A stretch of 64,000 nucleotides of DNA from Bacillus marasmi (lineage in GTDB: Bacteria; Bacillota; Bacilli; Bacillales; Cytobacillaceae), in the NCBI RefSeq assembly GCF_902168435.1, contig NZ_LR656174.1, forward strand, positions 1-64,000, written 5' to 3'. This document shows positions 4,551-8,058 of the stretch, in pieces. A model generated the notes under the pieces. It saw only the letters and a program-made list of their open reading frames with translations, ran no database searches and was not told the DNA's origin. Position 1 is the first letter of the stretch; each line of letters starts with the position of its first letter. Position numbers and translations under genes: made by a program.

Positions 4551-4779
4551 AACATCCACCTCCGTATTTGCTACACTTTTAAGGATAACACAGTTTAGAA
4601 TTTTAATCAAATTTTATATAATATCATTTAACATTTATACATGTCAATACTTTTTATAAAAAAATGTGTTTTTTCTGTATAAGATTAAATATTATCATCC
4701 CCTTACAATAATATGGAATTTTTTTGACGAATAATGGACTTCCACTCCATCATAATGTAGGGTTGAGGAGGTGCGCGCT

Positions 4780-5265
4780 ATGAGAAAAAGTCTTGCTTTT
4801 CTATTCTTGATTGCATTCGTCTTACTCTCTGGTTGTTTAAAGGATCCCATCCAGGAAGATATACTTAACTACGTAAATTCTGAATTGTCCCAAGCACATA
4901 AACTGGAAAAGAAAGCAGTAACCGCATATGAAAGTGTAACAGGAGCAAACTTTACTAACGACCAAGCTTTGTATGATGCTCTGCAAAATGAAGTTATTCC
5001 TACTTATAAGCAATTTCTACAGGAGCTTAAAGCAGTAAAAATCGAAACAGAAGAATTAGAAAAAATCCATGATATATATATTAAAGCCGCCGAAACTCAA
5101 CTTGAAGCCTTTGAGGTTATCATTCAAGCATTAGAAAATCAAAATCCTGTTTTGATCAATCAAGCCAACGATATGCTTGAGCAAGGTCGTAACCAAATTA
5201 GCGACTATCAGAAAAAACTTGATAACCTCGCTCAAGAACATAATGTAAATCTAGAAAAAGAATGA
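4780..5265 (+). CDS. Small helical lipoprotein of unknown function
   Basis: A 161-residue protein with a lipoprotein signal (MRKS, hydrophobic core, lipobox LSGC; mature Cys near residue 19) and a long, largely alpha-helical, Glu/Gln/Asn-rich body with coiled-coil character. It is expected to be anchored to the outer face of the membrane. It is loosely similar in layout to putative cell-wall-binding lipoproteins such as YkyA but shorter. The ATG at 4780 follows GAGGAGGTG; the upstream GTG is part of that site. No operon partner. Confidence 0.7.
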   Translation: MRKSLAFLFLIAFVLLSGCLKDPIQEDILNYVNSELSQAHKLEKKAVTAYESVTGANFTNDQALYDALQNEVIPTYKQFLQELKAVKIETEELEKIHDIYIKAAETQLEAFEVIIQALENQNPVLINQANDMLEQGRNQISDYQKKLDNLAQEHNVNLEKE

Positions 5266-5314
5266 AAAAGGGCTGACTCAAAGGTACGTTGCACCAAATG
5301 AGTCAGCCTTTTAT
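5266..5314. terminator. Bidirectional terminator between convergent genes
   Basis: GGCTGACTCA (5271-5280) pairs with TGAGTCAGCC (5299-5308), followed by T-rich tracts on both strands. It serves the lipoprotein gene and the convergent DedA gene. Confidence 0.85.
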
Positions 5315-5925
5315 GCCCGCTTCTTTTTATTATTCAAAATGAAATACATCAATACGCCTATCACTAGAATGCCCAAGACGATATAAATAACATTAGAGTA
5401 AATTCCCATGAAATACAGAACCTTTTCCCACGACTTACCAAGCAGTGCTCCAGCACCGACGAGAATGGAATTCCAAATCAATGTCCCTACAGTAGTAAAA
5501 AATAAAAACAAGCTAAATTTCATATTTGACATACCAGCGGGAATCGATATCATGCTTCTAATAAAAGGAATCATTCTACAAAATAAAACGGTCCAATAAC
5601 CATGATGATCAAACCATGCATCCGCTTTTAAAATATCCTCTTTCTTTACATGAAGGACCTTACCCCAGCGATCAACAATCTTCAACAGACGCTCTACATC
5701 AAGTAACAATCCTACACCATAAAGTATGATGGCGCCAAGCACTGACCCTCCAGTAGCTGAAAAAATCACCCCTAATACATTTAATTCAGTATGAGTGGTC
5801 ATAAACCCTCCAAAAGGCAAGATAAGTTCAGAAGGTATCGGGGGAAAAACATTCTCTAAACACATAAGCAAAAAGATACCTAAATATCCGAATTGTTCCA
5901 TAAAATCAGTAATCCAGCTTTGCAT
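5311..5925 (-). CDS. DedA-family membrane protein
   Basis: A 204-residue polytopic protein of the DedA/SNARE-associated (VTT) superfamily, members of which act as lipid flippases or in envelope homeostasis. The signature ENVFPPIPSELILPFGGF (about 24-41), the FDHHGYWTVLFCRMIPFIRS segment and the glycine-rich following helix are all present. About five hydrophobic segments are visible, with a basic tail NNKKKRA. The ATG follows GGAGGCGTCAC. It is similar to B. subtilis YngC/YkoX; the exact orthologue is not assignable. Confidence 0.85.
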   Translation of the reverse strand: MQSWITDFMEQFGYLGIFLLMCLENVFPPIPSELILPFGGFMTTHTELNVLGVIFSATGGSVLGAIILYGVGLLLDVERLLKIVDRWGKVLHVKKEDILKADAWFDHHGYWTVLFCRMIPFIRSMISIPAGMSNMKFSLFLFFTTVGTLIWNSILVGAGALLGKSWEKVLYFMGIYSNVIYIVLGILVIGVLMYFILNNKKKRA

Positions 5926-6038
5926 GTGACGCCTCCATTTTCCTACTTTTCCAATAGATGGTCGGCTATTTCCAGTTTTATCCTAATATTTGTCATGTTA
6001 ATTATAGCACTGAATTGGAAAGCCTAAAAACATTCTGT

Positions 6039-6428
6039 CTAGTTCACAATAAAAATCGGATCATGGTCTAAACTTTTAACACCCTCATCAAAGATGAGTT
6101 TTGTTTTGAAATGATAGGATACGGTTTGTGAGGTTTTATCTATTGATTTAGGCAAGGTGAATTGGAATTCAATCCGATTTTGCCCCCCTGATTCTATCTC
6201 CTGTGTTGAGAGAATTGTAATCGAATCAATAATCTCTTGCGTCTCCGTATGTGGATTCATTTTAATCAAGTCACATTCAATTCTTTTGATTTTCTGCTCA
6301 ACAGTACCACCCATTACATTAAAATAACCTTTTACGGTTTCAGCTTGTCTATATATATTTTTATTTATGATTAAATCCACTTGTGCAGAACCAATTCCCA
6401 TTAAAGACATGTATTTTCGTAACATCAT
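6039..6428 (-). CDS. Short Spo0M-like (arrestin-fold) protein
   Basis: A 129-residue protein matching the N-terminal half of Spo0M: GIGSAQVDLIINKNIYRQAE, then VKGYFNVMGGTVEQKIKRIE, the beta-strand pattern of the arrestin-like fold. B. subtilis Spo0M, a sporulation-control protein, is about twice as long (258 residues), so this is a one-domain version and not an obvious truncation: the reading frame has a good ribosome-binding site (AGGAGGAATAGGAA) and a clean stop. It is the first gene after a yybP-ykoY (Mn2+) riboswitch, an unusual association. Role unknown. Confidence 0.75.
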   Translation of the reverse strand: MMLRKYMSLMGIGSAQVDLIINKNIYRQAETVKGYFNVMGGTVEQKIKRIECDLIKMNPHTETQEIIDSITILSTQEIESGGQNRIEFQFTLPKSIDKTSQTVSYHFKTKLIFDEGVKSLDHDPIFIVN

Positions 6429-6483
6429 TTCCTATTCCTCCTGTACTGGTTTTTTTAAAAAAGAGCATATTTGTTAATAAAAA

Positions 6484-6510
6484 TGACCGTTACCTATTCG
6501 GTAACGGCCA
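6484..6510 (-). terminator. Second terminator in the yybP-ykoY leader
   Basis: On the minus strand CCGTTACC and GGTAACGG arms are followed by TCATTTTTATT. It lies between the riboswitch terminator and the Spo0M-like start codon, so transcription must pass two terminators to reach the gene. Confidence 0.7.
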
Positions 6511-6518
6511 TAAAAACA

Positions 6519-6636
6519 AAAAGACCCTTACCAAATACGGTAAAGGTCTGGCTAACAACATCAAGTTGCCAACAAAGCCGAGAGCATATACTCTGAAATG
6601 ACGACTTTGCTGTTAAAGCTACTCCCCTTTTGAGGA
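6519..6636 (-). ncRNA. yybP-ykoY (Mn2+-sensing) riboswitch with terminator
   Basis: Reading the minus strand, AAAGGGGAGTAGC opens the element, followed by a stem CAAAGTC/GGCTTTG capped by the AGAG-TATATG-CTCT hairpin, then TTGTTGGCAAC and TTGTTAGCCAGACCTTT. These are the conserved blocks of the yybP-ykoY RNA family as I remember it. The final CCTTT pairs with the opening AAAGG to close P1. The same CCTTT begins the 5' arm of a terminator (GACCTTTACC / GGTAAGGGTC, then T-run) at 6523-6548. Metal-stabilised P1 should therefore prevent termination, as for known ON switches of this class. The downstream gene is Spo0M-like, not the usual TerC, MntP or P-type ATPase. Confidence 0.85.
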
Positions 6637-6656
6637 AAAATTATGCTATTACAATT

Positions 6657-6685
6657 AGAATAAGGGGAAACAGTGTCCGTGTCAA
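6657..6685 (-). promoter_or_regulatory. SigA-type promoter of the yybP-ykoY leader
   Basis: On the minus strand TTGACA (6685-6680), a 17-base spacer and TATTCT (6662-6657) place transcription start just before the aptamer. This makes the leader independent of the upstream UPF0210 gene. Confidence 0.7.
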
Positions 6686-6696
6686 TCTAAAAATAA

Positions 6697-8058
6697 TTAA
6701 TTAATCAAGCTTTGTAATGGTGCAGGAATTCTCCCGCCCCGTCTAATGAACTTTTCAGAGCTAAATGCATTTACACCCATAACAGGTGCACGTCCAAGTA
6801 AGCCACCAAACTCGACCATATCACCTTCAGCACTACCTGGCACAGGAATAATTCGCACTGCAGTTGTCTTTTTGTTAATCATCCCAATTGCTGCTTCATC
6901 AGCAATAATGGCAGAAAGTGTTGATGGTGTTACATCGCCAGTGATTGCAATCATATCAAGCCCAACGGAACAAACGCACGTCATGGCTTCAAGCTTCGGA
7001 AGCGTAAGCGCCCCATCGACGATACCCCGAATCATACCATTATCCTCACTTACCGGGATAAACGCTCCGCTTAATCCACCTACATAGGAACTAGCCATCG
7101 CTCCACCTTTTTTAACCGCATCATTCATTAATGCGAGTGCAGCAATTGTTCCATGTGTCCCGACACGCTCGAGACCAATCTCTTCAAGAATTTCAGCAAC
7201 ACTATCATTAATCGCATTCGTTGGAGCAAGTGATAAATCCATAATCCCAAACGGGACACCAAGTCGTTCTGCCACAACGCGACCGATTAGCTCGCCAGCT
7301 CTTGTAATTTTAAAAGCAGTCTTCTTAATAACCTCAGACACCTCACCAAGGTCTGCATCGGGGTGGCGCTTCAACGCATTTAACACTACACCTGGCCCAC
7401 TTACCCCTACATTTAGGACCACTTCTCCTTCTCCTGAGCCGTGAAAAGCTCCTGCCATGAAAGGGTTATCTTCAACAGGGTTGCAAAAAACAACGAGCTT
7501 TGCACAAGCCAAACCATTTTCGTGTTTCGTTAACTCAGCAGCTTCTTTCATGATATGGCCCAGCTTACTTACTGCATCCATATTAATCCCTGTTCTAGTA
7601 GTTGCAACAGAAATGGACGAGCAAACCCGCTCGGTTACACTTAGAGCTTCAGGAAGTGCATCTAAGAGAACCTGATCACCTTTCGCAATTCCTTTATGTA
7701 CTAGGGCTGAAAAGCCACCAATAAAATCAATACCTAAAAGCTTAGCTGCTTTATCAAGTGTTTTCGCCAATTCGATTGCTTCTTCCTTAGTTGCGTTTCC
7801 AAGGATTTCTGCAATCGGGGAAATTGATATTCGTTTATTTATAATTGGTATGCCAAATTCTTTTTCTACTTGTTCAGCAACCACCTTTAAATTCTTAGCA
7901 TATGTTGTAATTTTGTCGTAGACCTTTTGATTCATTTTATTAAAATCCGAATCGCCACAATCATGGAGGTTGATCCCCATCGTTACGGTGCGAATATCAA
8001 GATTTTCCATCTGAACCATGCGAATCGTTTCCATCATCTCTTGAATTGCAATATTCAT
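6697..8058 (-). CDS. UPF0210 (PFL-family, DUF711) protein
   Basis: A 453-residue protein spanning the usual full length of UPF0210. The family relates structurally to pyruvate-formate-lyase-like folds, but its function is unknown. Typical blocks are GINLHDCGD near residue 30, the central glycine-rich [16 protein letters not shown], and the C-terminal [13 protein letters not shown]. The ATG follows AAGGAGGTTATCAAAA. It is 14 bases behind an ACT-domain gene (UPF0237), a pairing conserved in Firmicutes. Both sit behind a glycine riboswitch, which ties the pair to glycine or one-carbon metabolism by inference. Confidence 0.88.

Follow-up and report, generated by a model that had tools for sequence, protein, structure and literature searches.

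A yybP-ykoY-type leader RNA is conserved ahead of a one-lobe Spo0M-family gene in Bacillus marasmi and its relatives

Introduction

RNAs of the yybP type, which lie upstream of putative cation transporters, have been counted among the most abundant groups of riboswitches, and some of the genes associated with them are said to fit Mn2+ sensing poorly (PMC7266159). For the ykoY RNA of H. halodurans an ON logic has been demonstrated in vitro (PMC10898510), and TerC (MeeY, formerly YkoY, in B. subtilis) is reported to export manganese in support of the metalation of extracytoplasmic enzymes (PMC12096827; PMC10550928). Here we describe a leader RNA of this type in Bacillus marasmi, on the minus strand of the first 64,000 nucleotides of contig NZ_LR656174.1 (assembly GCF_902168435.1; this whole stretch is the window). 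The gene behind it encodes a 129-residue, single-lobe member of the Spo0M family, which we call half-Spo0M.

The leader resembles the ykoY/meeY switches of Bacillus and Halalkalibacterium in its core sequences, its aptamer helices and a P1 strand that is shared with a terminator. It differs from them in its target, which is half-Spo0M and not a transporter, and in usually carrying two look-alike terminators. Our preferred reading, to which we give a probability of about 0.6, is that an Mn2+-sensing ON riboswitch controls a transcription unit for manganese handling, in which half-Spo0M, encoded by the first gene here, would act from the cytosol as a partner to metal transport across the membrane. 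The aptamer, the promoter, two terminators, the gene and the conserved pairing of RNA and gene are the parts of this reading that the sequence backs. While the RNA class itself is already known, the open literature in PMC yielded no paper joining yybP-ykoY and Spo0M, although the gene tables of the founding 2015 papers lay outside this search and may hold a mention; nor, among the papers listed, was Spo0M found beside TerC, a riboswitch and manganese.

A manganese-type aptamer of compact form

The aptamer lies at 6534-6637, on the minus strand like all features below unless a strand is given. Both core blocks of the Rfam family RF00080 are present, GGGGAGUAGC at 6627-6618 and (G)UCGUCA at 6605-6599, and the 12 nucleotides between them form no hairpin. 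In an alignment of the window with 75 relatives (76 leaders), both blocks are invariant, GGGGAGTAGC (6618-6627) in part by selection, since 75 of the 76 leaders were picked for having it, and GTCGTCA (6599-6605) in 76/76.

Similarity to RF00080 covers 6554-6630 at 28.8 bits and is significant (E 5.7e-6, 721 bases searched), though it stays below the gathering score of 45, the library cut-off set by the curators; in a whole-genome search the same aptamer scored 26.4 bits (E 4.5e-5). A default Rfam scan of the window does not list the aptamer for this reason, and returns a glycine riboswitch as its sole entry. A low score alone does not make the match a false one, because the other candidates in the genome also fall below 45, namely one ahead of TerC (33.8 bits; a TerC of 268 residues) and one ahead of a P-type ATPase (28.7 bits), and because most related genomes behave alike: 48 of 61 hold an RF00080 match at E <= 0.001, and only nine exceed the cut-off. 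A further match of 22 bits (G000:C27:257037) lies inside a coding frame and was taken as chance.

A covariance model of the subfamily, built from 32 relatives with the window's genus left out, recognizes the window aptamer at 101.1 bits (E 4.0e-19 in the 4.64-Mb genome). The only other match of this model in the genome is the TerC copy, at 86 bits, whose two core blocks are identical to those of the window; the candidate ahead of the P-type ATPase is scarcely matched (17.5 bits, E 0.075) and remains a candidate.

The aptamer junction helices are backed by covariation. RNAalifold places 47 pairs in the 76 leaders, of which 21 show two-sided changes in at least one sequence. A named structure of 35 pairs, comprising 27 aptamer pairs and an eight-pair helix between terminator arms (a':b, discussed below), is paired in 99.2% of cells, with two-sided changes in 12/27 aptamer pairs and 1/8 a':b pairs. 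None of 500 shuffles reached it on any measure, and slid versions were at most 60% paired. P1, whose 5' strand AAAGG (6626-6630) would pair with 6546-6542 in the ON state, changes on one side or not at all, so that covariation speaks neither for nor against it.

Taken with the core blocks and the subfamily score, these observations bear out the class assignment of the initial annotation, which stands despite the low RF00080 score. Judged by its sequence, the leader is almost certainly an Mn2+ riboswitch of the yybP-ykoY class, and very probably one of the ON type.

The pairing of riboswitch and half-Spo0M is conserved

To gauge how widely this arrangement occurs, we scanned genomes with a profile of 13 relatives; 111 loci were found and 80 kept, mostly from Bacillaceae, all of them collected through half-Spo0M itself. 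In 75 of the 80, GGGGAGTAGC followed by G.CGTCA lies on the same strand, 184-571 nucleotides upstream of half-Spo0M. Among 30 loci in related genomes, the source genome included, 26 carry the first block and 24 carry both; the two sets overlap (for example L006/L067 and G331/L104) and are not independent.

A third view comes from 299 genomes of the class. The pattern accompanies every one of the nine best matches (at least 175 bits, frames of 130-145 codons) and begins 199-679 nucleotides upstream of them. Three second copies (144-146 bits) are without it. Among six short, more remote matches, one has the pattern while four of the five checkable ones lack it. As a control, the true core pattern occurs in 173 of the 299 genomes and the same pattern written backwards in five.

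At the level of genome comparison, the pairing that the initial annotation had proposed to look for elsewhere is confirmed as real and conserved. The same annotation had considered that relatives might normally carry TerC between switch and gene. This is never so in the 75 loci with the core, where the gap of 184-571 nucleotides leaves no room for it.

Half-Spo0M and full-length Spo0M

The gene at 6039-6428, preceded by a ribosome-binding site AGGAGG (6437-6442, read from the sequence), matches the Spo0M family PF07070 at 65.5 bits (cut-off 23), over model positions 1-134 of 213, which amounts to one lobe. PF07070 is its sole Pfam match at E <= 0.001, and NCBIfam and PHROGs returned no match. 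Spo0M proper is a two-lobe protein of about 250 residues; at 129 residues the gene product is, on its sequence, an N-lobe-only paralogue. The description of a Spo0M-like arrestin-fold protein behind the riboswitch thus holds for family membership and not for identity with Spo0M.

Compared with Spo0M (B. subtilis structure 5cl2), half-Spo0M lacks the C-lobe and carries a near-invariant cysteine, C52, in an ECDL motif that is absent from 5cl2. The source genome has a separate full-length Spo0M of 262 codons, without GGGGAGTAGC in the surrounding 3.6 kb. Of 20 full-length Spo0M genes examined in related genomes and the source genome (frames of 241-285 codons), none has GGGGAGTAGC upstream, nor the Mn-type riboswitch. 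The fold is Spo0M/arrestin-like, and the list of similar structures includes VPS26 solved with SNX3 and DMT1. DMT1 is a metal transporter.

YybP, the eponym of the riboswitch, likewise stands behind a yybP-ykoY leader, as tabulated for B. licheniformis (PMC3871023), and half-Spo0M was considered as a candidate for it. In one genome (G074) a second riboswitch precedes a lipoprotein-like gene of the DUF6376 family (PF19903), with no Spo0M; we infer that this genome belongs to the B. subtilis group and that its DUF6376 gene is YybP. Half-Spo0M has no PF19903 match, and the identification was dropped.

Protein-kinase-like genes occur near full-length spo0M (L065, source genome) and at ten half-Spo0M loci, with weak mutual similarity (best E 4e-6).

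Promoter, terminators and a possible relay

Upstream of the aptamer lies a sigma-70-type promoter, TTGACA-17-TATTCT (6657-6685), which scores 10/12 against consensus. Promoter-like sites in 5200-6900 are no more frequent than in shuffles (6 against a mean of 6.6), so that support for this promoter comes from the relatives: their score upstream of the aptamer is 9-12/12 in 75 of 75, against 5-9 in simple shuffles. The promoter claimed in the initial annotation holds up through this comparison, whereas the window region taken alone shows no excess.

Two terminators follow, T1 (6522-6549, -16.7 kcal/mol) and T2 (6483-6511, -18.9 kcal/mol), both of the form CCTTTACC-loop-GGTAAAGG or near to it. 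The 5' arm of T1 holds the 3' strand of P1, which by folding and comparison makes terminator and P1 mutually exclusive. Across the 76 leaders T1 changes on one side, as expected of an arm that doubles as a P1 strand, and compensatory changes occur in T2. A strict terminator scan found two terminators in 57 of 75 half-Spo0M leaders, one in 14 and none in four, against two in eight of 24 TerC leaders, one in 11 and none in five; the scan misses imperfect stems in both sets, such as the second one of L001. Among the papers that a search of the open PMC literature listed, none is by its title about tandem terminators behind a riboswitch.

The 3' arm of T1 (a', 6523-6532) is complementary to the 5' arm of T2 (b, 6500-6509) apart from one G.G mismatch. 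With P1 kept in place, the window RNA ending at b adopts an a':b hairpin of -11.7 kcal/mol, a putative anti-T2 element. In 71 of the 76 leaders all eight positions of the two arms are able to pair, and arms matched by locus do slightly better than random matchings (Watson-Crick fraction 0.916 against 0.905, 0/500 as good); for pairable positions 4/500 random matchings did as well, for full pairability 2/500.

How might these elements act together? At low Mn2+, GACCUUUACC would form T1 and transcription would stop, with T2 catching any read-through that leaks past T1. At high Mn2+, the bound aptamer would hold CCUUU in P1 and block T1. The freed a' may then pair with b as it emerges and delay T2, so that one aptamer would set both terminators through a relay. 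This coupled control of T2 is a tentative model, for which we would give somewhat less than even odds.

Neighbouring genes and the transcription unit

Predicted operons were taken from simple open reading frame calls, on the same strand and with gaps of at most 120 nucleotides, and gene families from BLAST clusters. In 21 of the 80 loci, all of them with the core, the predicted operon of half-Spo0M includes TerC downstream, either as the next gene or behind one for a DUF1232 protein; in one further genome (G175) the order is riboswitch, half-Spo0M, TerC, with the two genes about a dozen nucleotides apart. In another 24 loci DUF1232, kinase-like or unrelated genes follow.

In the window the next gene (5311-5925) starts 113 nucleotides after half-Spo0M on the same strand. 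It encodes a UptA-like membrane protein with a DedA/VTT domain (70.5 bits, cut-off 33.9), below the cut-offs of the NCBIfam UptA equivalogs (168.3 against 300, 120.6 against 250); UptA is an undecaprenyl-phosphate transporter. The gap contains no terminator-like or promoter-like site on the minus strand in our scan, and across the window and two other genomes of its genus (G004, the genome of locus L067, and G002) a DedA gene stands 113-117 nucleotides behind the half-Spo0M stop. The two genes are probably co-transcribed, which makes it doubtful that half-Spo0M is the only gene behind the riboswitch, as had been suggested. Convergent with the DedA gene lies a 164-residue lipoprotein-like gene (4771-5265, plus strand) with no Pfam family over cut-off; a close relative occupies the same place in L067.

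Another recurrent partner is FbpB-like. FbpB (PF13040) is described as a Fur-regulated small basic protein, an iron-sparing helper of the small RNA FsrA (PMC8464778). Frames of about 40 codons belonging to this sequence family occur in the stretch before half-Spo0M in 50 of the 80 loci, a count that is partly circular, as the profile was seeded with eight frames taken out of these leaders, one of which carried an extra K by mistake; the reverse-strand control gave none. Independently of this profile, all ten frames tested and one further frame pass the PF13040 cut-off. Unlike FbpB, these frames stand behind an Mn-type riboswitch; among the open PMC papers listed, none is, by its entry, about such an arrangement. 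The window leader has no such frame, only 54 nucleotides separating T2 from the start codon; FbpB-family genes of the source genome sit at two other sites (contigs C33 and C25), away from riboswitch loci.

The partners TerC (21/80), FbpB-like frames (50/80) and DUF1232 are the basis for reading the unit as one of metal homeostasis. Half-Spo0M may act together with metal transport at the membrane, and its most probable partner is the TerC (MeeY/YkoY) exporter. TerC belongs to the same operon in many relatives, and at another site of the source genome it stands behind an Mn-type riboswitch of its own. Within the window's genus, transcription of the unit probably continues into the DedA/UptA-like gene. 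From this neighbourhood we lean slightly towards a role of half-Spo0M in manganese export or metalation.

Weighing the readings

Several observations weigh against the preferred reading. The manganese role is drawn from gene neighbourhood, which is not biochemistry, and in 59 of the 80 loci, the window's among them, the predicted operon has no TerC; in 35 there is no same-strand gene within 120 nucleotides after half-Spo0M. The aptamer, at 26.4-28.8 bits, stays below the RF00080 gathering score. For the relay, the effect seen for a':b is small, relatedness is not taken into account by the shuffles, and other arms fit too through repeat similarity (a:b' fully in 59/76, the P1 5' strand with b in 70/76). 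Moreover, finished T2 is more stable than a':b, which in the window contains the mismatch, so that any effect of this helix must be kinetic.

The RNA itself could belong to a different motif or be a yybP variant with another metal ligand. The Rfam trpB motif RF04312 reaches 35.8 bits over an overlapping stretch, and a review anticipates variants of yybP that sense other metals and points to the ill-fitting associated genes (PMC7266159). The trpB motif was rejected: its score falls far short of the gathering threshold, 59, and its E-value is worse than that of RF00080. The identity of both core blocks with those of the copy ahead of TerC makes either option highly improbable. If the RNA is a manganese switch, it might still serve mainly the membrane gene downstream, DedA here and TerC or others elsewhere, with half-Spo0M as a passenger. 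TerC is the classical target, and the constant presence of half-Spo0M proves nothing in loci collected by it. What makes the passenger role quite unlikely is that 32 of the 35 loci without a close same-strand gene behind half-Spo0M keep the switch, as do 17 of the 19 in which the next gene is on the opposite strand.

Two further proposals concern what half-Spo0M does. The initial annotation had linked manganese to sporulation through Spo0M. Mn2+ is needed for sporulation, and half-Spo0M is a PF07070 member. Against an action of Mn2+ on sporulation through a Spo0M-like activity stand the missing second lobe, the full-length Spo0M elsewhere in the genome with no core nearby, the 0/20 among full-length genes, neighbours that include TerC and FbpB-like genes, and the description of B. 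subtilis Spo0M as also acting in vegetative growth (PMC5325327); the link is not supported, and a sporulation role appears very unlikely. By analogy, half-Spo0M might instead be an Mn2+-induced, one-lobe arrestin-like adaptor governing how stable or how active metal transporters are, be it export by TerC or removal of the Mn/Mg importers MntH and MgtE by presenting them to the membrane protease FtsH. Joined by an FbpB-like RNA helper encoded on this transcript, it would make up a manganese-overload programme, run by one aptamer over two terminators through the arm relay. The idea derives from reports that B. subtilis Spo0M interacts with FtsH (PMC5325327), that at high Mn2+ B. subtilis uses FtsH and a different adaptor, YqgP, to degrade MgtE (PMC7231995), and that in yeast the metal transporter Smf1 is presented for removal by arrestins (PMC2810449), and the fold, with VPS26, SNX3 and DMT1 on its list, is in line with it. 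The reported Spo0M partners, however, belong to the two-lobed protein, and the yeast proteins, which likewise tie an arrestin-like protein to transporter control, are eukaryotic ubiquitin-ligase adaptors and offer an analogy only; we consider this proposal unlikely.

Further riboswitch loci

The survey also brought up Mn-type loci with other arrangements. One locus (L026; G056:C3, ~427020-427616) carries a pair of complete Mn-type riboswitches one after the other. The upstream one (91 bits) precedes a DUF1232 gene, and the downstream one (108 bits) leads into FbpB-like and half-Spo0M genes. A review notes a lack of tandem Mn2+ riboswitches (PMC9481103); those of L026 are separated by a gene and hence not tandem in the strict sense. 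Elsewhere an Mn-type core precedes a PAP2 phosphatase gene (L049, G009:C1:1268094-1268178; PF01569, 75.5 bits), which alongside the window's DedA gene hints at envelope-lipid genes under manganese control. Mn-type cores also stand before a DUF5392 gene (L062, G022:C28) and, in the same order in two genomes (L154 and L155; G196 and G096), before genes for a 144-residue and then a 96-residue protein, the former (in L154) with no Pfam family over cut-off. The glycine riboswitch of the window (RF00504, 8521-8443, minus strand, 52.6 bits) is followed by two genes, one with an ACT domain (8357-8073) and one of the DUF711 family (8058-6697).

Implications

On the preferred reading, a manganese switch would have a conserved target outside transport in many Bacillaceae, and so provide a handle on a protein family without an assigned role. 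The pairing would tie a bacterial arrestin-like fold to metal homeostasis, and put under a manganese switch a small protein of the FbpB type, which is known from iron sparing. The arrangement may also offer a natural system for asking if a single aptamer can control two successive terminators.
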